Origin: Candidatus Eiseniibacteriota bacterium
GTDB lineage: Bacteria; Eisenbacteria; RBG-16-71-46; CAIMUX01
Reading direction: 5' to 3'
Assembly (NCBI GenBank): GCA_903844735.1
Contig: CAIMUX010000022.1
Coordinates: 62,001-126,000, forward strand
DNA: 64,000 nt
The position numbers were made by a program, and so were the translations under genes. The notes beneath the pieces were generated by a model that was given only the letters and a program-made list of their open reading frames with translations, was not told the DNA's origin and did no database searches. Of the stretch, positions 19,653 to 33,200 are shown piece after piece; position 1 is the stretch's first letter; each line of letters starts with the position of its first letter.

Positions 19653-22600
19653 TCACGCGATCGACTTCGGTCGTTCGAACTCACCCGAAGGATCGTGGAA
19701 GGGGTGTTCGAGAACGCCCTCCCACACTGTCCGGGCCGCCTGGGGTGATCGTACGACGTCGGCTGGCCGCAGCTCCTTCCCGGGTGTCGGCTGATACTGC
19801 CGAACGACGATCCCATCGGCCAGCTCCACGATCTGGTCGCAATCGGCCAGGGTCTCCGTGCGATGCGCGATGATGAGCCGCGAGATACCCCGGCACTCGT
19901 GGTTGATCGCGCGCTGGATCAGCGAGTCGGTCTCGACGTCGACACTGGCCGTCGCCTCGTCGAGCACGATGATCTTCGCCCGGGCGAGCAGCGCGCGGGC
20001 CAGGCAGAAGAGCTGCCGCTGTCCCTGGCTGAAGTTGTGGCCGTTTTCCTGTACAACCGTGTCGAGTTGACCCGGCAGACCGGTGATGAAGGCGTTCAGG
20101 CCGAGGCGCCGCAGCGCTGCCCGGATCTCTTCGTCGGTGTAGATGGCGAACCGATCGAGGTTCTGCCGCAGCCTGCCCTGGAAGAGGATCGGATCCTGCG
20201 GAATGATCGCGACCGAACGCCGCAACACTTCGAGGGGCACCGAGCGGATATCATGCCCATCGATCAGAATGCGCCCGCCGGACAGGTCGATGAGACGGAA
20301 CAGCACCTGAAACAGCGTGCTCTTGCCCGAGCCGGTGCGCCCGACGATCCCCATACTCGTGCCCTGCGGTACCCTGAACGTCACGCCACGCAGGATTTCC
20401 GGCAGGCCCTCGTCGTAACGCGCGCGCACCCGGTCGAAGACGATGTCGCCCGCGAGCGGCCAGTGGTGGGCCTCGGACACCGAGTTCTCCATGAGCAGAC
20501 GCGGCTCCGGTTCGAGCGCCGCATAGCGCGACAACCGCTCCACGGAAGTCAGGCGAGACTCCGCCTCGCTGAACGCGCGGATCGCCCAGTTCAGCGAGCC
20601 CCAGAAGTGAAGCGTGTAGGTCAGGACCAGCCCCACCGTGCCCGCTCCCATGGCACCCCGGCGAGCCGCCCAAGTCAAACCCAGCACCACGCCCAGCGAG
20701 ACTAAGGAGCTGAGCAGCGGGATGCGAATCGAAAACCAGCGGTTCACGCGGCACATCGCGTAGAACATCCGCTGGTTCTCGGCCAGCGTCCGGAGGAATT
20801 CGTCGCGGAACATCTCCTGCTTGCTGAACGCCCGCACTACCGTCAGCCCTTGCAGCGTTTCCTTGAAGTGGGCGAAGCGAGGCGACCGGGTGATGGAATG
20901 CAGGCGCTTGGTCTCCCGCGCGGTGGCGCGGTACGACGCCTGCAGGCGGTGATAGAGCAGCAGCGTCGGCAAGATCAGCGCGATCGTTCCCGGGAGGACG
21001 GCGATGATCACCGCGAGGCAACCGATGGTCCAGAGCACGGCGCGAACCGCCTCGGCGAAACTCCACGCCAGGTCGCGCTCGACCGAGTCGACGTCGCGGG
21101 AGAACCGGTTCAGGATGCGGCCAGCCGGGGTCGCGTCGAAGAAGCGGATCTTCGTATGCAGCATTCCGGCCAACGCCCGATCGTGGAAGTCGCGAGCGCT
21201 GGAGATCGCTCGGAACGCCCAGAAGAGGAACTGGGTGAAGATCATCGCCACCGCGGTGAAGCCGATCGCCCCGTAGATGGCGAGGCCCCATCCCTGTCCC
21301 GGAGGGAGCGTCCATCCGAAGAGGGCGACCCTCAGCGGACCTGACCCGGCGGAGGAAATCGCGTTCGTCCAACGCGCCAGCCACGAATTCTCCAGGATCG
21401 ACAGTGCCGGCAGCGCGAGGGTCGTCGCTACCAGCAACGCCAGGATCCACCTGGCTCGCCGGGGGTTGCGGCCGCCCAGGGCCTTGAAGTAATCGAGGTA
21501 GACGGACAGGCGGACGGCTCCGGCCTCGCGGTCCTCATCATCGGTGATGCGCGTCGCGGCGGCGGGCAGCGGGCCTGCTCCGAGTTCGGCGGTCGGCGTC
21601 GGCGCCCCGGCCTTCACCGCCCGCCCGGCACCCGAGCGTCTTTCGTTCTCGGCCAGGAAATCGCGGAACCTCGAGCAGTCGGCATCCAGCTCATCGAAGG
21701 GACCGTCATCGACGATCTGACCCGCCTCCAGGAAGACAATCCGGTCGAACGCCCGCAGGTTGCCCAGGCGGTGTGTGGTCATGACGAGGGTGGTCCCGGC
21801 GAACGCGCCGCCGATCAGGCGCTCGATCAATAGATCCTCGGTGGTCTCATCCACGGCGGAGAGGGGGTCGTCGAGCAGCACGAGATCCGGCTTGCGCAGG
21901 ACGGCGCGGGCAAGGCTGACGCGTTGGCGTTGGCCTCCGGAGAGGTTCACGCCGTTTTCGCCGATCTCGGTTTCCAGGCCGGCGGGGAGCAGGCTGAGGT
22001 CGTGCCGCAGCGCGGCGGCGTCGATCGCCGCCTCCAGATCACCCTCGGTTTCACCGAAGGCGATGTTGTGGCGCAACGTCCCGTTCAGGATGAAGGGATC
22101 CTGGGGGACAAAGGCGAGACGCGGCTTGCAGGTCAGTCCCTCTGGCCCGAGGAACCGCATCTCGCCTGCGGTCGGTTCCAGCTCACCCAGGATGGTCGCC
22201 AGCAACGTGGTCTTGCCGCAACCTACCGGGCCCACGACCGCTAGCTTCTCGCCGGCCCGGATCGTCAGCGACACGCCATGGAGTGAGTCGTCCTGCGCAC
22301 CCGGATAGCGGATGTCCACGCCGGCGAACCGGATCGACACTCGACCGGGCCCGTACGTGGTCGTGCGATCGGTCGGGACGTAGGTTTCTTTGGCGAAAAA
22401 CTTGATCAGCCGATCCGCCGAGACGCGGGCGGTCACGATCGCCGAAACGAGATTGGGGAAGCTGCCGAAGGGGCGCTCCAGAAGCGAAAATAGGAACACG
22501 CAGGAGAAGACGAGAGGTGCATTCAGCTCGTGACCCAAGAGGACGTAGGTGCCGAAGGAACCCAACGCCATGACGATCGTGGTACCCGCATAGAAGAGGA

Positions 22601-23501
22601 GGGAAAGGCTTTCGGTGACCACGAGCCGGCGGCGAGCCGCTATCTCGTGACCGCGGATCGCCCCGATCTCGGAACAGAAGCGCGTCTCCCACACGAAGTA
22701 CTTGACGATGCGAATACCGGCCACGGCCTGCGAAACGAGGGAGACGCGCTCGTCCCTCTTGGTCATGATCGTCTCGTCGAGGGTCACCACCCGCCGAGCG
22801 ACGATCCTCGTCACGGGCCCGAGAACCACGAGCACGCCCAGCGCCACAAGGCCGGCGGCCCCCAGTTGCCAGACTAAGAGGGCGACCACGCAGATCACCG
22901 TGAGGACGCCGATGACGAGCTCACAAGCATAGATGGGCAGCTCCGCGATGGCGTCGGTGTCCGTGCTCATGTGATTGACGAGATCACCCACGGGGGTGGC
23001 GGTCCGTGCGTTGCGGGTCAGGCGCAGGGCGTGGTGATAGATGCGGACATTCAGGCCATTGGCGGCCCGCTGCTCGGCGTGCAACCACCGGTCGTACACG
23101 TGCTGCTGCGTGATGGCGGAGGCGAGACTGGCGAGACACAGGCCGGCAGCGGCGGCCAGTACGACGAGGGACGAGGTCGGCCCGGCCGCCGTAGGAACGA
23201 GCGAGGTCAGCAGTTGCCGTACGAGGAGGGGCGAGGCGAGGTCGAAACCGAGAACGATCAACGCGAGCGCGAGGATGACCAGGAACTCGCGACGCATCGC
23301 CCGGATGAGACCGACGAGAAACCGCCGCGGATTGGCGCAGCTCAAGGAGGACAGATCCGGCCGGCCGCTCGCGGGATCAAGGTGGGGCGGCAGGGCCGGC
23401 AGGTCATCGGGTCCGATCACCTTCCTCCGGCCGGTGGCGACCACGGGCCCCATGTCGGCGAATAACAGAGCATTCCATCGCTTGCGGATTGATGCGAGCA
23501 C
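19653..23501 (-). CDS. ABCC/MRP-type full ABC transporter (TMD-NBD-TMD-NBD)
   Basis: A single ~1,282-residue polypeptide holds two membrane domains and two ATPases, as in eukaryotic MRP/ABCC exporters. NBD1 has Walker A GPVGCGKTT, signature LSGGQRQR and Walker B LVLLDDPLSAVD, with Asp in place of the catalytic Glu, the classic asymmetric ABCC site. NBD2 has GRTGSGKST, signature FSQGQRQ and a canonical IIVLDEATASVD. The first membrane domain includes GDLVNHMSTD and the second has GRILNRFSRDVD, both typical exporter coupling segments. GTG at 23501 has GGAGGA seven bases upstream and is preferred over GTG 23522. It follows the two-component genes by 82 bases on the same strand, so it may be their output. 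The exported substrate is unknown. Confidence 0.88.
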   Translation of the reverse strand: MLASIRKRWNALLFADMGPVVATGRRKVIGPDDLPALPPHLDPASGRPDLSSLSCANPRRFLVGLIRAMRREFLVILALALIVLGFDLASPLLVRQLLTSLVPTAAGPTSSLVVLAAAAGLCLASLASAITQQHVYDRWLHAEQRAANGLNVRIYHHALRLTRNARTATPVGDLVNHMSTDTDAIAELPIYACELVIGVLTVICVVALLVWQLGAAGLVALGVLVVLGPVTRIVARRVVTLDETIMTKRDERVSLVSQAVAGIRIVKYFVWETRFCSEIGAIRGHEIAARRRLVVTESLSLLFYAGTTIVMALGSFGTYVLLGHELNAPLVFSCVFLFSLLERPFGSFPNLVSAIVTARVSADRLIKFFAKETYVPTDRTTTYGPGRVSIRFAGVDIRYPGAQDDSLHGVSLTIRAGEKLAVVGPVGCGKTTLLATILGELEPTAGEMRFLGPEGLTCKPRLAFVPQDPFILNGTLRHNIAFGETEGDLEAAIDAAALRHDLSLLPAGLETEIGENGVNLSGGQRQRVSLARAVLRKPDLVLLDDPLSAVDETTEDLLIERLIGGAFAGTTLVMTTHRLGNLRAFDRIVFLEAGQIVDDGPFDELDADCSRFRDFLAENERRSGAGRAVKAGAPTPTAELGAGPLPAAATRITDDEDREAGAVRLSVYLDYFKALGGRNPRRARWILALLVATTLALPALSILENSWLARWTNAISSAGSGPLRVALFGWTLPPGQGWGLAIYGAIGFTAVAMIFTQFLFWAFRAISSARDFHDRALAGMLHTKIRFFDATPAGRILNRFSRDVDSVERDLAWSFAEAVRAVLWTIGCLAVIIAVLPGTIALILPTLLLYHRLQASYRATARETKRLHSITRSPRFAHFKETLQGLTVVRAFSKQEMFRDEFLRTLAENQRMFYAMCRVNRWFSIRIPLLSSLVSLGVVLGLTWAARRGAMGAGTVGLVLTYTLHFWGSLNWAIRAFSEAESRLTSVERLSRYAALEPEPRLLMENSVSEAHHWPLAGDIVFDRVRARYDEGLPEILRGVTFRVPQGTSMGIVGRTGSGKSTLFQVLFRLIDLSGGRILIDGHDIRSVPLEVLRRSVAIIPQDPILFQGRLRQNLDRFAIYTDEEIRAALRRLGLNAFITGLPGQLDTVVQENGHNFSQGQRQLFCLARALLARAKIIVLDEATASVDVETDSLIQRAINHECRGISRLIIAHRTETLADCDQIVELADGIVVRQYQPTPGKELRPADVVRSPQAARTVWEGVLEHPFHDPSGEFERPKSIA

Positions 23502-23583
23502 GGCCGTTCCTCCACTGATCACACGACGAGAGCGTTACCCGCATTGTCCATCAGCGCTCCACTGCGACAGGCAAAGATCGAGT

Positions 23584-26500
23584 TCATGCCCGGAGCCGCT
23601 CCAGCATGTCCCGGATCTCGCGCCACGGGATCGGACGCTTCTCCATCCGCGCATCGATCAACCCTGCGAGCACGGTCGAGTCGCAGTTGTCCGAACAGAG
23701 AATCACCGGACCCTCGTACGCCGTGGCCTTGAGCTTGCGGAGAAACTCCTCCACGGGTTCGGTCTCGCCGGCCCCGAAGTGGTAGTCCGTGACGAGGCAA
23801 TCGATGTTCGCCATGTCCGTGTCGTCGGCCGGGTGGTTCGACCAGAACTCCAACGGTCCTCGATAGGCTAAGACACGGGCGTCCGGCACGCGCCGGACCC
23901 AGGCCCGGCGCATGAATATATCGTCGTCGACGACCACGATGAGCGGACGCTGTTCTGCGACCGACGTATCGACCGGCGGCTCGACCGGCGCTTCATCCGG
24001 CGCCTCTATCGGCGACTCAGGATCGATCTCGCGGGGCGGTCGGTGTTCTGCGACCGGCGCCTCATCCGGCGGTTCGGGCTCGGCCTCGCGGGGCGCGGTC
24101 GCGCACTCTCGGGTGGTCTCGTCGAGCAGTCGCACGAGGTGCGGACGACTCATCGGTTTGGGCAGGAAGGCATCGGCCCCGACTTCGATCGCGTGACGAT
24201 AGTCCTGCGACACGCTTCGATTGGAGTGGATGTAGATGACCGCCCGAATGCCCCGGCGGCGCAGTTCGAGGGTCACGGCGAAGCCGTCCGGAGATTCCGC
24301 CCCAAGGTCGATGTCACAGATGCAGGCGTCGGGTCGGCCATGTGCGAGCGCCTCGTACACCATCGCTTCATCCCGCAGCGAGACGATCTCCACATTGTCC
24401 TCAAACCATGGAGCGTCCTTGATCAGATTACGGATACCCTCCGCGTAGATCGCCTCGTCGTCGATTACCCAGATCCGCAGGCGACGTCGGTGAGTCTGGC
24501 GAAACGCGACCAGGTTCCCGGCCAGCAATTTCTCCCGTTCGAGCGCTCTGCGCTCGTCCTCGCTCAGGGAGAGAGCCGTGCGCTGCTGGTAGTCCTCCAC
24601 GATCTCGCGGCTGCTCGGCGGCAGGACCAGCGACGACCGGCTTTCGGTTTCGTGGGCCGGCAGCGTGAAACAGAACCGCACGCCCCGGGTGCGATCCGAG
24701 ACGCACCAGATGCGTCCCTCGTGGGCTTCGATGACCTTCTTGGTGATGGCGAGTCCGAGGCCTGTCCCGCCCCGCTTTCCCTTCGAGAAAAACGCGTCGA
24801 AGATGCGGGGGAGATCGGCGGGTTCAATGTACGAACCGGTGTTGCCGATGCAGACGCGAACGAACGGCTGCCCACCCGCGATGACATCCTCGGTTTCGCA
24901 GCGGATCTCGCCACGGTTCTGCATGGCGTCGGCGGCGTTCGACAGGATGTTGGCGAAGACGCGGTGGACCTGGTGGGGGCAGGCGTGAAACGGCCGAGTA
25001 TGGGACAGATGATAGGCGAATCGCACGGCGGCATGGGCCCTCGTCTCGAAGACTTCCCGCAGTCCGGCGTCTAACGCCCCGTCCGGGGTCACGACCTCGC
25101 GCACCGGTTCGCGGGCGGTGCCGATTTCCAGGATGTCCTGGATCATCCCGTCGACCGCGCCCAGCGCCCGTTCCACTTCCGGCAACATGCGTACGGCCAT
25201 CTCCCTGACCTCGGCGAGACTGCCGGCATTGCGGATCATGTCCAGCAGGATCCGGACCATCGAGAACGGGCGGCGGACGTCGTGGGCGAACATCTGCGTG
25301 GCCGCGCCCAGCGCGGTGAGCATCGCCTGGTTCAACTCGGCCTGGTCGAACCGGGCGGACCTGCGATGCAGCGAGGCGAAGGAGGTGAATCCAGCCGCCG
25401 AGGTGAGGGACTCCCGATCGATGCGGCGATCGACAAGCAGGCCGACGGTCGCCTGGAACAACGGTACAATGCCGAGTTCCGGGCCGATTTCCCCGGCGAG
25501 CCGGCGAATCGCGTCGGTCCGGGCGATACGGGAGGACGCCCGCCGGGCCGCCAGGAGCGCTGCCGAATAGGACCGCCCGCCCGCCCGCCCGGCCGATTCG
25601 GACTCCACGGCCAGGTGCTGGAAGAAACCGAGTTCGTCGACGCTATGGCCGACGAAGATGGCGCGCAGGTGGGCGTGACACTCGGGCGTCTCCGCCCCGA
25701 GCGGGACCGAGGCTCCGCTCACGAACCGGACGGTCGCGCCGCGCGCGCGGCACTCGGACGCGACGGCGTCCAGGAAATCGGCGCGCAGGCTTCCTTCGTC
25801 GAAGGCCACGCTGAAGGTGGGTATGCCCCGGGAACGCGGGGCGGCCGACGCGCGGTCGGCCGGTCCGGCGGGGCATGCGGGAATCGCGGGGATGAAGGTG
25901 GGCGGTCTCAGACCGAAGAACGCCTTCTTCAGGCCGGCGGCGTCACAGGCCTGTTTCAAGATCCGAACCGAATTGTCGGTCGGGGAGATGTCGGGCCGCA
26001 GCCGCAGGTAGAACAGGCGTTCACCGGGGAGGCGGGCCAGGCGTTCGGTGAATCCCCCCGGGGACTTCTGGGGAGCCGGGAACGGCTCGCCGAAGACTAC
26101 CACGGTAGGGTCGTGCGGGCTGAGACTCCCGGTGGATCTCGGCACCGGTCCGCCCTGGGCGTGCCCGGCAACGTCCAGCGGCGCGCCGTCGGGAGTGGGG
26201 CCGTGGACGAGGATTCGCGCGAACGATCGGGGGCGAGCCGCCGGGTGATCTTTCTCGATGGAGAGCTCCCACTCCGTCGGATCAGAACGCTCCACGCGGT
26301 AGGGACCGCTGAATCCGTCCACCGATCCTTCGGTGGCTCGTCGCGATCGAATCGAATTGCACGGGAGCGCCAAGTAGTGCAGGAGATCGTCGCAGCGGTC
26401 CTTCAACTGCACTTCGAACCGGTATCGTGAGATCCGGCGGAGGCCGCTCCCCACAGCCGCTCCTCGCGCGGCCGGGTGCTCCAGCAGGTCGAGGAGCCGG

Positions 26501-26898
26501 GACCCCTCCGGGTGAGTGGCGGCGGCGGTGGCCAGCGATTCCATGACGTCGTCGGACGTAACTTCGTCCCCGTTGTGAAACCGGCGCTCGGACTGGATCT
26601 GGAACCGGTAGATCGTCCCGTTTCCCGAGACGGCATAGGACGAGATCAGGTTGGGATCGGGGGCTCCGCGCTCGTTCAGCTCGAACAAACGATCGGAAAT
26701 GCTCACCAGCACGCACCAGGCGATGGGCGAAAGAGGTTCGCGGGCACAGCACGAGTCGATCCCCTCGATCGGACCGGACGCGAGGACGTGCAGCGTGTCG
26801 TCGGCCTCTTGTCGCCGAGTCGCGTCGGCCTCACGGCGTGGAGTCGTTTCGACGTCGTGGAGCCGAGTCGTTTCGGCCTCGTGGAACGGATTCGTCAT
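23584..26898 (-). CDS. cytosolic hybrid histidine kinase with family-5 solute-binding-protein-like sensor and two receiver domains
   Basis: A 1,104-residue protein without signal peptide or membrane helix. Residues ~35-500 resemble family-5 (oligopeptide/dipeptide) solute-binding proteins: ISDRLFELN, YRFQIQSERRFHNGDEVTSD and GFSGPYRVER. The kinase core follows: H-box FAHDVRRPFS (H539), N-box ANILSNAADAM (N650/N654) and G-box GGTGLGLA (709-716). Receiver 1 has VIDDEA (D813/D814), acceptor D862 or D864, and K914. Receiver 2 has VVVDDD (991-993) and acceptor D1038. The linker at 935-985 and the N-terminal 35 residues come from 12/24-bp repeats. Its ATG overlaps the upstream partner's stop (ATGA). 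It probably senses a peptide-like ligand in the cytoplasm; no DNA-binding output is seen. Confidence 0.8.
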   Translation of the reverse strand: MTNPFHEAETTRLHDVETTPRREADATRRQEADDTLHVLASGPIEGIDSCCAREPLSPIAWCVLVSISDRLFELNERGAPDPNLISSYAVSGNGTIYRFQIQSERRFHNGDEVTSDDVMESLATAAATHPEGSRLLDLLEHPAARGAAVGSGLRRISRYRFEVQLKDRCDDLLHYLALPCNSIRSRRATEGSVDGFSGPYRVERSDPTEWELSIEKDHPAARPRSFARILVHGPTPDGAPLDVAGHAQGGPVPRSTGSLSPHDPTVVVFGEPFPAPQKSPGGFTERLARLPGERLFYLRLRPDISPTDNSVRILKQACDAAGLKKAFFGLRPPTFIPAIPACPAGPADRASAAPRSRGIPTFSVAFDEGSLRADFLDAVASECRARGATVRFVSGASVPLGAETPECHAHLRAIFVGHSVDELGFFQHLAVESESAGRAGGRSYSAALLAARRASSRIARTDAIRRLAGEIGPELGIVPLFQATVGLLVDRRIDRESLTSAAGFTSFASLHRRSARFDQAELNQAMLTALGAATQMFAHDVRRPFSMVRILLDMIRNAGSLAEVREMAVRMLPEVERALGAVDGMIQDILEIGTAREPVREVVTPDGALDAGLREVFETRAHAAVRFAYHLSHTRPFHACPHQVHRVFANILSNAADAMQNRGEIRCETEDVIAGGQPFVRVCIGNTGSYIEPADLPRIFDAFFSKGKRGGTGLGLAITKKVIEAHEGRIWCVSDRTRGVRFCFTLPAHETESRSSLVLPPSSREIVEDYQQRTALSLSEDERRALEREKLLAGNLVAFRQTHRRRLRIWVIDDEAIYAEGIRNLIKDAPWFEDNVEIVSLRDEAMVYEALAHGRPDACICDIDLGAESPDGFAVTLELRRRGIRAVIYIHSNRSVSQDYRHAIEVGADAFLPKPMSRPHLVRLLDETTRECATAPREAEPEPPDEAPVAEHRPPREIDPESPIEAPDEAPVEPPVDTSVAEQRPLIVVVDDDIFMRRAWVRRVPDARVLAYRGPLEFWSNHPADDTDMANIDCLVTDYHFGAGETEPVEEFLRKLKATAYEGPVILCSDNCDSTVLAGLIDARMEKRPIPWREIRDMLERLRA
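23957..24110. repeat. 12-bp tandem repeats in the kinase linker
   Basis: About ten degenerate 12-bp units (TCGACCGGCGGC-like) encode the Pro/Glu-rich linker between the two receivers. A larger ~95-bp duplication is also visible, since TGTTCTGCGACCG occurs twice. Confidence 0.65.
26799..26894. repeat. four 24-bp tandem repeats at the kinase N-terminus
   Basis: Four exact-length 24-bp units encode 8-residue repeats (ETTRLHDV, ETTPRREA, DATRRQEA) right after the start codon on the minus strand. Confidence 0.75.
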
Positions 26899-28661
26899 GG
26901 AGCACTCTCCAGCTTCCCCTCGGAGGGAAGGGCGAAGCGGGCCAGGGGATCCTCGCCGGGTTCGCGCAGGCGCGACCAGTCCGGGGGATCCTTGCCGATG
27001 ATCCCCCGCAGCCACGGCATGGGGCTGAAGCGATCGGCATCGAAACCGGTGGCGAGGTAGATCTCCGTGAACCCGGCGTCAAACATGCTCCACGCAAACT
27101 GCTCACCGGGCAACTCGTCACATAGATCCGAGTCGATGAACAAGACGGTGGACCGGTCAAGATGCGGTTGCACGGCGAGGAATTCCCGCATGGACTTGCA
27201 GGTCAGCAGCCGCTTTCCGGCTCGCGCGGCCGAGAGCTCCCATCCCTTGCGGATCCAGATGTGGTCGTCCACCAATACGGCGTCGGGCCGGCCCTGGAGG
27301 GTAATCGGTCGCCCGCCGATCCCGCTCACGATCGGAATGCGCGTGACGAGGTTCTTCGGCAGGAGCCGCAGTCCGAGCCCCAGGGAGCGGCTGCGCACCT
27401 GCGGCTCCTCCCAACGGCCGGTTACCAGCACGGAGCGCGGCACGACCTCTCGGAACCGTTCCAGCACGTCGAGCCCGGATCTTTCGCTACCTACGTAGCC
27501 GTCATCCACGAGGAGCAGCCCGACCTGCGCCAGAGGGCCGTCTTCCCGGAGCCGGCTTTCAAGTTGGTCGAGGCTGTGGAGGTGGACGATTTGCGGGAGC
27601 GAGAATTCCGGAACCGTGCGGAACGCCCTCTCCCACATCTGGTGTACCCAGTCATCGTCATCGACCACAAGCACCGGCCGGTTGAGCGGCAGGTCAATCT
27701 CGGGCAAGAACCAGGACGGGGGTGGCGTCAGCGGGGCTGTGATCTCGACGGCGATTTCGCTGCCCCGGCGCGACACCGTTCCCCCCACGGGGATCAGAAT
27801 GTCCTGCAGCTTGGCAATCCCTTCGATCAACGCCGAAGGTTTTCCAGGGTCCGCGATCGGCCTGCTGAACAGTTGCCCGGTGACCGGACGCACAAGTTCG
27901 ACGCGGCAGGTCAGGACGTCGGCCGCCGTCCCCACCGAGAAGCGCAGGATTCTGTCGCCCGCTCCGCTCGCCTGCGCGAGCATGCTCAGAGCCAGATCCT
28001 CCAGTCCCCGGCGAAAGGGCCGTTGCGGGACATGGATGAACAGACCGTAAGGAACCATCTCCTCGTCGAAGTCGATCTGACTGGAGAGAAAACCGGGTCG
28101 CAGGCGAAGGGCGGAAACCATCGCCTCGATGACCGCGGACAGCAGGGCCGGCTGCGGCTCCGCCTCGCCGGGCAGAAGGAACGTGGTCGGGTCCGGGTGG
28201 GGCACCGCCAGAACCTCGTGGGCCCATCGTTCACTGGTCAACAGACCCGCAATGCCGCGCAACCGAGACAGGGCCGGCTTCAGCACCTGGAGGCGCGTCT
28301 CGGGCGAGATCCGGCCTGCGGAAAGGAAGACATCGAGTGCCGCCAGCGGTGAGCGGATGTCGTGGGCCAGCCGCGCGGAGGCGCCCTGCAGACGGCCGGC
28401 CGTCTCGGCCCGGAACGTTTCCCGATCGGCCTCGCGCATCGTGGCGCGGCCCTTCTCGATCGCCTCCGCCAGCCGGGCCAGGTCGGCGGGCAGCCGTTCG
28501 CGCTCTGCGGGATCCAGCGTGAGCGTACGCTCCAGTGCCTCACGCAGGCGGCGTACGGCGCGCCGGGACGTCCGACGATCGATGATCCGTCCCAGCACAA
28601 GTCCGACCAGCGCCGCGCCGATCGCCGGCCCGACCCCCATGACCACCTGCGCCAGCTCCAT
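26895..28661 (-). CDS. membrane-anchored histidine kinase-like protein with degenerate ATPase and two receiver-like domains
   Basis: This 588-residue protein begins with one membrane helix (GPAIGAALVGLVLG), then a helical stretch and the phosphoacceptor box RLAHDIRSPLAAL (H100). The following ~200 residues sit where the ATPase domain should be. The Asn of the N-box is missing (EDLALSML), and no DxGxG or GTGLGL is seen, so ATP binding is probably lost. A receiver (VLVVDDDDW, LLLVDDGYVG) and a second receiver-like unit (AVLVDDHIW, VLFIDSDLCD) follow. ATG at 28661. It is the first gene of a coupled pair with the SBP-like kinase, and may act as a phospho-relay partner. Confidence 0.7.
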   Translation of the reverse strand: MELAQVVMGVGPAIGAALVGLVLGRIIDRRTSRRAVRRLREALERTLTLDPAERERLPADLARLAEAIEKGRATMREADRETFRAETAGRLQGASARLAHDIRSPLAALDVFLSAGRISPETRLQVLKPALSRLRGIAGLLTSERWAHEVLAVPHPDPTTFLLPGEAEPQPALLSAVIEAMVSALRLRPGFLSSQIDFDEEMVPYGLFIHVPQRPFRRGLEDLALSMLAQASGAGDRILRFSVGTAADVLTCRVELVRPVTGQLFSRPIADPGKPSALIEGIAKLQDILIPVGGTVSRRGSEIAVEITAPLTPPPSWFLPEIDLPLNRPVLVVDDDDWVHQMWERAFRTVPEFSLPQIVHLHSLDQLESRLREDGPLAQVGLLLVDDGYVGSERSGLDVLERFREVVPRSVLVTGRWEEPQVRSRSLGLGLRLLPKNLVTRIPIVSGIGGRPITLQGRPDAVLVDDHIWIRKGWELSAARAGKRLLTCKSMREFLAVQPHLDRSTVLFIDSDLCDELPGEQFAWSMFDAGFTEIYLATGFDADRFSPMPWLRGIIGKDPPDWSRLREPGEDPLARFALPSEGKLESAP

Positions 28662-28890
28662 CTTCCGCCCCCCGCGGGTGTCTTGGATGCGACTTGAGCC
28701 CGGTCCAGTATACCGCGACCGCCTGCGGGGGAGAACGCCCGCGCGGCACACGCAGGCTGGACACTCCGGCCGAACACCCTGGGCACTCCGGCTGGACACG
28801 CACTCGCTGGACAACGCGCGCGCCGGACTTCCGGCGGGCATGCTATGCTCCCGAGCCTGGAACTTGCCGGAGAATAGGGGATCGCGGCTG
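28662..28890. promoter_or_regulatory. divergent intergenic region between kinase operon and Ser/Thr kinase
   Basis: This 229-bp region must hold promoters for both directions. A TATGCT box lies near 28846 without a convincing -35. The centre contains short GGCTGGACAC-type direct repeats at ~28755-28812. Confidence 0.35.
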
Positions 28891-31542
28891 ATGGACGCAG
28901 GGTCCGAGATTCCGCCCGGGACCATGATCGACGGGCTCAGAATCGAGTCGTTGGTCGGGGTGGGGGGCATGGGGACGGTCTACCAGGCTGTCGATACCCG
29001 TCTCGACCGGCTCGTGGCGGTTAAGTTCCTCACCGACGTGCGCAACCGAAACATCTCGGTGGAGAGATTTCGCCGCGAAGCCACCTCGGTCGCGCGATGC
29101 TGTCACCCGGGGATTGTGCAGATCTACGGCTGGGGCGAGTTCCGGGACACCCCGTACTTCACGATGGAGTTCGTGGAAGGCCGGACGCTTGGTGCGTACA
29201 TCAGCAAGGGCCGGTTGCTCCGCCACAAGACCGACGCGGAGGTGGAAAACCTGATTGCCGCCGGTTACCTCAACCACGACCCCGAGCAGCCGTACTTCCT
29301 GCGCGATCCCTGCCGCGATCCGATCGACTCTCCTGAGCACCTTGTGGAGGCGGCCTCCCTGGTGGCGAACGTGGCTGATGCGCTCTCGGTGGCGCATGCG
29401 CAGCAGATCATCCATCGCGACGTCAAGCCGGCGAACATCATGTTGAATCGCCGGGGGGCGGCCAAGATTGTCGATTTCGGACTGGCCCTGCAGCGGTCCA
29501 CGTCTGACCTGACGGCAAGCCAGCAGATTCTGGGCACGTTGCGGTACATGGCCCCGGAGCAGTTCAGCGGCCACCGGGAACGGATCGGCCCCACGACGGA
29601 CATCTACTCCCTGGGTGTCGTGTTCTACGAACTGGCCACGTTCGTTCATCCGATCCAAGCGGGGGAGATTGCGGCGGTCATCGGCCAGATCGTCGGCGAG
29701 AGACCGGAGTCGCCGACCGTGCACAATCCAAAGCTTCCTCGGGCCATGGCGCGGATTATGGAACGTTGCCTGGCCAAGGACCCGTCCGACCGATTCCCGT
29801 CGGCCGATGCCCTGGCCGACGAACTGCGGCTCGCCGCCGAGGGGCGTTCGTCGGGGCTGCGGGCCTGGTATTCGTTCTTTCGCTCTCCGACTCCTGGGAA
29901 AGCCGCCTCGATAACCTCTGATGCCGCGGAGCCGTTCAGAGTCCCGCCGCCGGGTCCCGATGTTCCGGCCGGGGGCGTTCACGAGGGGATCCCGGCGCGT
30001 GACGGGGCCGGCGCTTCCGCCCTGGCGCGAGCCGTCAGCACGTTTCGCCAGAGGCTCGATGTCGAGGAGGCGCTCCCGCTGCTGGAATCGGTCCTGGCCG
30101 CCCACCCCGAGTTTGTCCCGGGCCATCTGCTCGCGCTGGAGATCAAAGAGTTCCTGGACGACGAAGAGGCGTGCTTGGAGATCGTGCGGGGCCTGCAGGA
30201 GCGAGCCGGCCAATTCACCGAGAGCGGTCGCATGCTGGCCGAGGCCGTGGGGCAGCTTCGCGGGGAGACCGACTTCGAGGCGGCCCGTGCCCTCATCCGG
30301 AAGCACAACGGCAGATTTCCGTTCGCCCCGTCACTGGTCTGGCCGGAGATCGAGACGTACCTGGAGCTCGGGGAGCAGGAGCGGGCGCACCAAATGATCG
30401 GCAATCTCCTCCGACAGCGCCCGGACGATGCCCTGTGTCGTTGGTACGCGGCGCGCTATTTCCTGGTGCTGGGCCGGCTCGATGCGGCGCGGACCGTGCT
30501 GGAGACGTCCTCGGCCGAGCCGGAACTCCGGTGGCTCCACCTGCCGGCGGCCCGACTGGCTCTGGCGGTCGGGGATGTCGAAGGCGCGCGGCAGCAGATC
30601 GACCGACTTCGGCAAGAGAGACCGATGCATCCGGGGATTCTCGATACCGACATGCGGGTGGCGCTGGCGGAGGGTCACGTTGACAGGGCGTGTAAGACCG
30701 CCCGCGAGCGCGTGAGCATTGCCGGCGATGGGCTGGAGAGGGTCCGCGCGTATGCCTGGCTGGCGCGCTTGGCCCGGGCGGAGCAGCGGCAGAGCGACGC
30801 CGACAAGTATCACGAGATATCCCGCCGTCTCGGCGGCCCGAGCCGAGCCGGCACCGGAGATCCGTCGGACGCCTCGTCCGGGGGGGGGCGAGGCGCCCCG
30901 ACAACGGGGCCGATGGTCGGCTTGGTCCGCGAGGAGCTGCGGCGCTTCGGGCTCGATCGCCCGTGGTGTCGTCCGTGCGTTCACGCGTCGCTGTTCACCT
31001 TCTGTGCCGGGCGGGAGTTCTCACGCATCGACTATTTCGCCCGGACCAACGACCTTCTCATGGACTGCCGTAGCTTCCGGGTCCATCTGCCGAGCTCACC
31101 CCGCGAGCCGTTTACCACCCTGGGCGGGAAGCTGCCTATCGCACCGGTTACCACCCTCGATGGGGAGCTACCCCTCGCACCGTTCACCACCCTCGATGGG
31201 GAGCCGGCGGTCGCCCGCTACAACGCGCTGTCCACGCCCTACGGTTCGGTGCGTGCGTCGGTGCGGCTGCCGGTCGATGTCGCGCCGGAGGGGGAGATCA
31301 TCGTGCAGACCGGCTTCGAAACGGTCCTTCGGCCGCAGGGGGAAGTGACCCTGCCGCCCGAGACCGCCCTGGCCTCCGAACCGACGGCCCGTCTGGTGGT
31401 GGTGGAGGTCCCGGTGGCCCTGGCGGGTGTTGTCTCTTCGCCGGTACCCTCTGAGACGATCGACCTTCTCGACTCGCGGCTGCTGGTCTTCCGGCGACAC
31501 CTGTTTCGGGAGGAGCGGTGCAGCGTGACGCTCCAGTTCTGA
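28891..31542 (+). CDS. Hanks-type Ser/Thr protein kinase with TPR-like region and novel C-terminal domain
   Basis: An 883-residue protein starting at ATG 28891 with AGGGGA upstream. The kinase is complete: glycine loop GVGGMG (23-28), K45, HRDVKPAN (D177), DFG (195-197) and APEQF. Residues ~102-148 form an unusual insertion before the catalytic loop. A TPR-like helical region covers about 370-640. The last ~230 residues form a beta-rich domain I do not recognise, with a threefold 12-residue repeat (TTLDGELPLAPF) encoded by 36-bp units. No membrane helix is visible. It is transcribed divergently from the histidine kinase genes, so the two signalling branches may be linked. Confidence 0.82.
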   Translation: MDAGSEIPPGTMIDGLRIESLVGVGGMGTVYQAVDTRLDRLVAVKFLTDVRNRNISVERFRREATSVARCCHPGIVQIYGWGEFRDTPYFTMEFVEGRTLGAYISKGRLLRHKTDAEVENLIAAGYLNHDPEQPYFLRDPCRDPIDSPEHLVEAASLVANVADALSVAHAQQIIHRDVKPANIMLNRRGAAKIVDFGLALQRSTSDLTASQQILGTLRYMAPEQFSGHRERIGPTTDIYSLGVVFYELATFVHPIQAGEIAAVIGQIVGERPESPTVHNPKLPRAMARIMERCLAKDPSDRFPSADALADELRLAAEGRSSGLRAWYSFFRSPTPGKAASITSDAAEPFRVPPPGPDVPAGGVHEGIPARDGAGASALARAVSTFRQRLDVEEALPLLESVLAAHPEFVPGHLLALEIKEFLDDEEACLEIVRGLQERAGQFTESGRMLAEAVGQLRGETDFEAARALIRKHNGRFPFAPSLVWPEIETYLELGEQERAHQMIGNLLRQRPDDALCRWYAARYFLVLGRLDAARTVLETSSAEPELRWLHLPAARLALAVGDVEGARQQIDRLRQERPMHPGILDTDMRVALAEGHVDRACKTARERVSIAGDGLERVRAYAWLARLARAEQRQSDADKYHEISRRLGGPSRAGTGDPSDASSGGGRGAPTTGPMVGLVREELRRFGLDRPWCRPCVHASLFTFCAGREFSRIDYFARTNDLLMDCRSFRVHLPSSPREPFTTLGGKLPIAPVTTLDGELPLAPFTTLDGEPAVARYNALSTPYGSVRASVRLPVDVAPEGEIIVQTGFETVLRPQGEVTLPPETALASEPTARLVVVEVPVALAGVVSSPVPSETIDLLDSRLLVFRRHLFREERCSVTLQF
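31112..31219. repeat. three 36-bp tandem repeats in the Ser/Thr kinase gene
   Basis: Three consecutive 36-bp units share TACCACCCTCGATGGGGAG and keep the frame. The last two are almost identical over their first half. Confidence 0.75.
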
Positions 31543-31700: not shown

Positions 31701-31729
31701 TTGACGACATGGCAAATTGGCCATACCGT
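31701..31729 (+). promoter_or_regulatory. arsR1 promoter with ArsR-type operator
   Basis: TTGACG (31701-31706) and TACCGT (31724-31729) are spaced by 17 bases. Between them lies ATGGCAAATTGGCCAT (31709-31724), an imperfect 16-bp palindrome with 14 matching positions. A repressor bound here would block RNA polymerase. Transcription would start within a few bases of the ATG at 31736, so the mRNA is nearly leaderless. Confidence 0.55.
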
Positions 31730-31735
31730 AATAAC

Positions 31736-32041
31736 ATGAAGCCGTCAAACACCAACGGGAAGGAACTGTTTCGAGCCCAGGCACGCGTCCTCAAAGCTCT
31801 GGCCAACGAGTCTCGCCTGATGATCGTGGATCGTCTGAGCCGCGGGGAGTGCAGTGCGGGCGACCTGACCCGTCTGATCGGGTCCGATCAGACGACGGTT
31901 TCGAAGCACCTTGCCGTCTTGCGCGCCCACGAGATCGTGGCGGACCGGCGGGAGGGAAGCGTGGTCATGTATCGCCTGCTGACGCCCTGCGTCATGAACT
32001 TCTTTTCCTGTGCGACGCAGGTCCTGAAGGAGACGAGATGA
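31736..32041 (+). CDS. ArsR/SmtB family repressor 1
   Basis: A 101-residue winged-helix protein: LKALANESRLMIVDRLSRGE, recognition helix around DQTTVSKHLAVLRAHEIV, wing DRREGSVVMYRL. The cysteine in GECSAGDL occupies the place of the ArsR ELCVCDL metal site, and CVMNFFSC adds two more, so thiolate sensing of As(III), Hg(II) or similar is plausible. I prefer ATG 31736, because the earlier ATG (31709) lies inside the predicted promoter. It opens the metal(loid) island and probably controls the permease gene 40 bases downstream. Confidence 0.85.
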   Translation: MKPSNTNGKELFRAQARVLKALANESRLMIVDRLSRGECSAGDLTRLIGSDQTTVSKHLAVLRAHEIVADRREGSVVMYRLLTPCVMNFFSCATQVLKETR

Positions 32042-32081
32042 CAGGCATCTTTTTGTTTGGCAAGAGTTTGTCGGCAAGGCC

Positions 32082-33200
32082 ATGTCGTCATGTGCCGGCG
32101 GGGTCGCGGCATGGGATGAAGACGTGAAAGCCGATGTTGAATGCTGCGCCCCCGCCGAGTCGCCCGCGTCCGCGCCCAGGCCGGCGCAGAGGCGGCTTTG
32201 GTATGGACTTGCGGGCGGGATCGTAGTCTGGATCGCGCTCTACCGCCTGTTGAAGCCGGCGGCCGCTCTGCTGATCTACGACACCATCGGCCTGATCCGG
32301 GGCACGCGTCTGGCAAGCAGCGTCGAGTTCTTCGTCTACGAGGTGCCCAAAGTCCTCATGCTCCTCGTCCTCGTGGTCTTCGGCGTGGGGATCGTTAGGA
32401 CGTTTTTCACCCCCGAACGGACACGCCGCACCCTGGCCGGAAAGCGGGAGTCGCTCGGCAATGTTCTCGCTGCTGCCCTGGGCGTGGTCACTCCGTTCTG
32501 CTCCTGTTCCGCCGTGCCTCTGTTTCTCGGCTTCGTCGAGGCTGGGGTACCGCTCGGCGTCACGTTTTCGTTTCTGATCTCCGCTCCGATGGTAAACGAA
32601 GTCGCCCTTGTTCTGCTCTTCGGTCTCTTCGGGTGGAAGGTGGCCGGTCTCTACCTGGCAACCGGTCTCTTGATCGCCATCGGCGCCGGATGGGTACTCG
32701 GTCGCCTGCGGCTTGAGCGCTATATCGAACCGTGGGTCCATGAGACAAGACTCGGCGTCGGCGGGCCGATCGAAGAAGACCTTACCTGGGATGATCGAGC
32801 GCAACGAGCGCTCCAGGCTGTTCGGGAGATCGTGGGAAAAGTCTGGCCCTACGTCGTCGGCGGAATCGCCGTCGGCGCGGGCATCCATGGCTACGTTCCC
32901 GAGGGACTGATGGCGGGGATCATGGGCAAGTCCGCCTGGTGGTCCGTTCCCGCCGCCGTACTCGTCGGCGTGCCAATGTACTCGAATGCCGCCGGCATCG
33001 TTCCGGTGGTCCAGGCACTTCTCGAGAAAGGCGCGGCCCTGGGGACCGTGCTTGCCTTCATGATGGCCGTGATCGGGCTGTCGCTGCCGGAGACAATCAT
33101 CCTGCGCAAGGTTCTGCGGCCACCGCTCATCGCCGCATTCGTCGGTATCGTCGCGTGCGGAATCCTCATGGTCGGCTATTTGTTCAACCTGATCTTCTAA
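32082..33200 (+). CDS. UPF0718/ArsP-like membrane permease
   Basis: A 372-residue membrane protein with about eight helices and the hallmark TPFCSCSAVPLFLGF of the UPF0718/DUF318 permeases. Known members include ArsP, which exports trivalent methylated arsenicals, and SO_0444-type metal(loid) exporters. The second signature GVPMYSNAAGIVP is present in the C-terminal half. The N-terminus carries a CCAP pair and one more Cys, possible metal-binding thiols. ATG 32082 was chosen, though its ribosome-binding site is weak. It follows arsR1 directly and shares its strand with acr3 and hgcAB further on. Confidence 0.85.
   Translation: MSSCAGGVAAWDEDVKADVECCAPAESPASAPRPAQRRLWYGLAGGIVVWIALYRLLKPAAALLIYDTIGLIRGTRLASSVEFFVYEVPKVLMLLVLVVFGVGIVRTFFTPERTRRTLAGKRESLGNVLAAALGVVTPFCSCSAVPLFLGFVEAGVPLGVTFSFLISAPMVNEVALVLLFGLFGWKVAGLYLATGLLIAIGAGWVLGRLRLERYIEPWVHETRLGVGGPIEEDLTWDDRAQRALQAVREIVGKVWPYVVGGIAVGAGIHGYVPEGLMAGIMGKSAWWSVPAAVLVGVPMYSNAAGIVPVVQALLEKGAALGTVLAFMMAVIGLSLPETIILRKVLRPPLIAAFVGIVACGILMVGYLFNLIF

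Follow-up and report, generated by a model that had tools for sequence, protein, structure and literature searches.

A gene of a Candidatus Eiseniibacteriota bacterium probably encodes a hybrid histidine kinase that is soluble and senses through a cytosolic Venus-flytrap domain descended from the family-5 solute-binding proteins (SBP5). Domains of this family usually sit outside the membrane, where they hand peptides, nickel and other nutrients over to transporters. Cytosolic regulators with an SBP5 domain are already known, and so are sensors of the solute-binding protein (SBP) type in cytosolic signalling proteins. What is unusual here is an N-terminal family 5 domain on a soluble hybrid kinase with two receivers, an architecture seen in one genome so far.

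Domain architecture

The window in our analysis is a stretch of 64,000 nucleotides (contig CAIMUX010000022.1, positions 62,001 to 126,000). The kinase is a single open reading frame (ORF) on the minus strand, running from 26898 to 23584. Its domains and the adjacent genes are as follows.

23584..26898, minus strand: SBP5-HisKA-HATPase_c-REC-REC hybrid kinase, 1104 aa, no signal peptide or transmembrane (TM) helix
25423..26793, minus strand: SBP family 5 domain, residues 36-492 (Pfam at 80-209, above cut-off; profile-profile alignment at 59-492, probability 98.6)
26272..26661, minus strand: SBP5 N-lobe core, residues 80-209, with an R-F-H-N-G motif at 106-110 (Pfam, AF2, Foldseek)
25423..26031, minus strand: diverged SBP5 C-lobe, residues ~290-492, with F415-V-G-H418 apparently replacing W-x-A-D (shuffle test, profile alignment)
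25099..25326, minus strand: DHp/HisKA helix pair, phosphoacceptor H539 in AHDVRRP (phmmer, Pfam, motifs)
24655..24975, minus strand: HATPase_c, with N-box NILSNAAD, G1 variant GNTGSYI and G2 GTGLGLAI (Pfam, motif positions)
24124..24480, minus strand: receiver 1, with acceptor D862, S892 and K914 (Pfam, motifs)
23587..23946, minus strand: putative receiver 2 behind a Pro/Glu-rich linker, with acceptor D1038, S1069 and K1087 (motifs, similarity to the neighbour)
26895..28661, minus strand: upstream gene, 588 aa, its stop overlapping the kinase ATG; one N-terminal TM helix, H-box LAHDIRSP, two receiver-like segments
19653..23522, minus strand: full-length ABC exporter, 1289 aa, 61 nt downstream of the kinase gene; two membrane and two ATPase domains (Pfam)

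The kinase ATG at 26898 overlaps the upstream stop codon as ATGA (CTCCATGACG). An in-frame GTG would extend the protein to 27015, within the upstream gene, but this extension is charged and is therefore not a signal peptide. The third-position GC content (GC3) is 0.816 for the whole kinase gene and 0.813 for its SBP part. With a single ORF, the Pfam domains and no export signal, the coordinates, strand and architecture are those given in the initial annotation.

By profile and model comparison, the N-terminal part is a true and probably nearly full-length SBP5 domain with a strongly diverged C-lobe. SBP_bac_5 (PF00496) was matched at residues 80-209 with 43.1 bits (E 4e-11; cut-off 32.4), the solved peptide-binding protein 8upi was matched by phmmer at E 2e-5, and a profile built from SBP5s of the phylum scored 66 bits over residues 59-212. 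In the profile-profile comparison, residues 59-492 were aligned over 416 columns with a probability of 98.6%. Scored by itself, the C-lobe reached 31.8; the highest of 200 shuffles scored 27.3, their median was 14.7, and four control segments gave 13-19. The C-lobe aligns in the right order, and residues 215-345 are poorly alignable. Structure prediction with AF2 gave a mean pLDDT of 51 with an 8-row alignment, in which the N-lobe alone was confident (blocks at 70-94), and of 35 for residues 1-520 from the single sequence. The predicted N-lobe was matched by Foldseek to OppA, DppE, PrgZ and NikA with a probability of 1.00 over about 200 residues. The comparison with OppA and DppA proposed in the initial annotation thus gave a match to type II binding proteins in the N-lobe; the C-lobe lacks AF2 confidence and was recognised by profile alignment only. 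As the protein carries no export signal, we regard this part as an SBP5 domain homologue and not as a transport binding protein.

The sequence features of a hybrid kinase are present behind it: the DHp histidine, the N, G1 and G2 boxes, and a C-terminal receiver with its acceptor aspartate. HATPase_c was found at residues 642-748 (74.9 bits, E 9e-21). HisKA at 533-594 is sub-threshold in Pfam (15.1 bits), but its H-box AH539DVRRP is clear, and solved kinases were matched by phmmer across residues 517-748. The G1 box deviates, with N-T-G where D-x-G is expected. Receiver 1 is a Response_reg match at 809-924 (56.8 bits, E 3e-15). The second receiver (about residues 985-1104) did not reach the Pfam threshold and has no receiver match among PDB sequences; we assign it tentatively from its DDD991-993/D1038/S1069/K1087 pattern and from a weak similarity (E 0.008) to the neighbouring gene's final receiver.

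Neither a TM helix nor a signal peptide was found in any hydropathy window, from either the ATG or the GTG start. The Kyte-Doolittle maximum in 19-residue windows is 1.54, and it falls within the conserved strand at the C-terminal end of the SBP fold. The DHp region with H539 comes immediately after that fold, which ends near residue 492, and no TM, HAMP or PAS segment separates the two. With neither a signal peptide nor a TM helix, nor a membrane segment between sensor and kinase, a cytosolic location is the best reading of the protein. Pfam, the profile alignment and hydropathy support the initial view that a family-5 fold is joined to a kinase core and receivers within a single soluble chain.

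Relatives in the phylum and beyond

The same domain order was sought in several collections, and the genomes searched yielded no further SBP5-kinase fusion. Across 47 genomes of the phylum, which all belong to one class, the matches to the N-terminal domain are confined to stand-alone SBP5 ORFs. Nor was a fusion found among the long frames checked in 379 Myxococcota, 400 Chloroflexota and 398 Pseudomonadota genomes (about 1,180 in all), a shallow search in which three candidates per genome were scored among the matches listed and the names of the phyla are those of the records used as search centres. The long SBP5 frames considered as fusions in these phyla turned out to be over-extended or to be permease/SBP fusions, with no kinase match. 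One scan of a collection of genome contigs gave no second fusion, and the relatives from it share the kinase core only, at loci without SBP5. A scan of viral contigs with the N-terminal domain found no relative, tblastn against plasmids gave no fusion among the matches listed, and no paper dedicated to SBP5-kinase fusions was found in the open-access literature. Close homologues that are periplasmic single-chain sensors, which would have spoken against the initial annotation, were likewise not found in these searches. Because the architecture was found in a single genome, its function cannot be tested through conservation.

The SBP5s of the phylum that are closest to the window domain belong to a conserved two-gene module, in which an SBP5 gene overlaps, by 4-52 nt, a gene for a membrane kinase homologous from locus to locus. 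The pair is present at 12 of the 14 loci (L078:4740-8635 in the window's own genome, L080-L084, L086, L087, L151, L152, L154 and L155), where L151 is counted as paired although its kinase frame is over-extended, so that its overlap length is not exact. The module is spread across families f1, f2, f3 and f11 of the phylum. Of the two remaining loci, one stops at a contig edge and the other is L085. At the latter (L085:4881-6776, genome G004), the end of the SBP5 gene faces a convergent serine-recombinase-like ORF in the expected place of the paired kinase. The module SBP5s usually carry a signal or an anchor, and the kinases are of the Cache-HAMP-PAS-HATPase_c type, as found in the two that were run through Pfam.

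The best pairwise identity of the window SBP5 domain to the module SBP5s is 29%. In a tree of the N-lobes, the window domain lies on a long branch (2.34) without a firm position, and a clade joining it with the kinase-paired SBP5s was not rejected (p-AU 0.58). The core of the window kinase is distant from the module kinases and does not group with them, and Pfam finds no Cache, HAMP or PAS domain in the single window ORF. These comparisons neither establish nor reject an origin of the SBP5 domain in the module. Since relatives in the phylum pair an SBP5 with a kinase, it is plausible that histidine kinases of this lineage receive input from SBP5s.

The neighbouring genes and the possible ligand

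No ATPase domain could be recognised in the product of the upstream gene (26895-28661), and the gene has no homologue in the phylum. Its TM anchor, its H-box and its two receiver-like segments, together with the missing ATPase domain, suggest that this HK-like protein is a partner in a phosphorelay. Divergent from the kinase gene cluster, a Ser/Thr protein kinase with TPR repeats is encoded at 28129-31542 on the plus strand. At 31709-33200, also on the plus strand, an ArsR-like regulator precedes an ArsP_1 permease.

The initial annotation had described the protein as oligopeptide-sensing, which the analysis does not support. The ligands of solved SBP5 relatives are diverse, including peptides, heme, nickel chelates and opines. 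In the OppA and DppA structures, the peptide amine is bound at the aspartate of a W-x-A-D motif. In the profile alignment, which is weak in the C-lobe and thus tentative here, this motif aligns to F415-V-G-H418, so the aspartate corresponds to His418; W-x-A-D is invariant in the kinase-paired SBP5s. A peptide is not favoured as the ligand.

Discussion

We propose that a small intracellular solute would close the two lobes of the SBP5 domain. The last strand of the lobe reaches the DHp helix within about 30 residues, and closure would alter the register of this helix and hence the autophosphorylation of H539. Phosphate would then pass from H539 to D862 and possibly to D1038, and a phosphorelay could lead onward, which the overlapping, membrane-anchored and ATPase-less HK-like neighbour may join. 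The sequence itself gives the domain order in a single chain, the lack of export and membrane signals, the SBP5 homology, the conserved phosphotransfer residues and the overlap with the neighbour gene; from these we infer the cytosolic location, ligand binding, flytrap signalling, the route of the phosphorelay and co-transcription with the ABC exporter gene. It is weakened by the diverged C-lobe, which has no confident AF2 fold and leaves the cleft putative, by the apparent replacement of the ligand-site aspartate, by the variant G1 box (N-T-G for D-x-G), and by the occurrence of the architecture in a single genome.

The same divergence is what makes another explanation worth weighing: the SBP5 region may no longer bind a solute and may serve instead as a protein-docking or dimerisation platform, for instance for the HK-like neighbour or an ABC protein, with the partner controlling the kinase. 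The low best identity (29%) and the long branch (2.34), the apparent loss of a W-x-A-D motif that the kinase-paired SBP5s all retain, the poorly alignable residues 215-345 and the neighbour gene overlapping at ATGA would all fit a platform. As both lobes are still detectable in the right order, and SBP5 ligand sites vary widely among subfamilies, we consider this account unlikely, if still the strongest competitor. An assembly or frameshift artefact that joined normally overlapping SBP5 and kinase genes is suggested by how common such overlapping pairs (4-52 nt) are in the phylum, and no orthologue confirms the fusion. Against it, the SBP part is without the signal or anchor typical of most paired SBP5s, the kinase part is without TM-Cache-HAMP-PAS and has a core not close to those of the paired kinases, the spacing from SBP to DHp is only about 30 residues, and the SBP part agrees with the gene as a whole in GC3 (0.81-0.82). 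Such an artefact is very improbable. We give equally little credence to an exported or membrane sensor with the SBP5 domain in the periplasm. Most SBP5 proteins are indeed extracytoplasmic, but no hydrophobic segment was found at the N-terminus, in the reading frame ahead of it or where the SBP domain joins the kinase, and the kinase and receivers of the same chain require cytosolic ATP and partners. The soluble flytrap kinase remains our preferred reading.

A more specific version of the preferred reading is that the kinase senses the intracellular substrate of the downstream ABC exporter, with the HK-like neighbour as relay. We hold this to be distinctly improbable. If it were true, a binding domain that evolved for import would report cargo awaiting export, as a flux-type sensor.

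The kinase can be compared with several known systems. EvgS/BvgS-type kinases also carry a flytrap SBP fold and a hybrid kinase in one chain, but their Venus-flytrap domains are of family-3 type and lie outside the membrane, connected through a TM helix, whereas the window protein has a family 5 domain and no membrane segment. OppA, DppA and NikA share the fold and the N-lobe sequence; they are exported and serve transport, and the W-x-A-D of the OppA/DppA type is apparently absent from the window protein. The phylum module resembles it in encoding an SBP5 together with a histidine kinase and holds its closest pairwise SBP5 relatives, but there the SBP5 is separate from the kinase, which lies in the membrane and has a Cache domain of its own, in contrast to one soluble chain.

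On the cytosolic side, SgrR and DsvR are regulators with an SBP5 domain, DsvR being described as HTH plus SBP_bac5 (PMC13060122). Like the SgrR family, the window protein has its SBP5 domain in a regulator without an export signal, and in SgrR and DsvR too this domain is the presumed ligand sensor (PMC13060122). Their output is an HTH domain and their SBP5 is C-terminal, whereas the window protein has kinase and receiver output with an N-terminal SBP5; Pfam gave no match to the SgrR_N HTH domain in it. Pfam profiles of SBPs also match sensor domains of cytosolic signal transduction proteins (PMC9602780). A further signalling protein with an SBP5 predicted to be cytosolic is an MCPsignal chemoreceptor (L088:3231-6455) on a metagenomic viral contig of IMG/VR, with an integrase-like ORF nearby. 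Unlike the window kinase, it has a methyl-accepting chemotaxis output, an intact C-terminal SBP5 and hydrophobic N-terminal segments. The initial annotation had called the architecture unusual and not a described class. This stands for the SBP5-kinase fusion, found in one genome only, but it has to be narrowed in view of SgrR and DsvR, the L088 receptor and the sensors of PMC9602780.

With this protein, the short list of intracellular signalling proteins built on transport-type SBPs extends to histidine kinases. Its minimal connection between flytrap and DHp would offer a simple model of SBP-driven control of a kinase, and the SBP5 and histidine kinase gene pair of the phylum provides a natural comparison, in which the same fold would signal from either side of the membrane.
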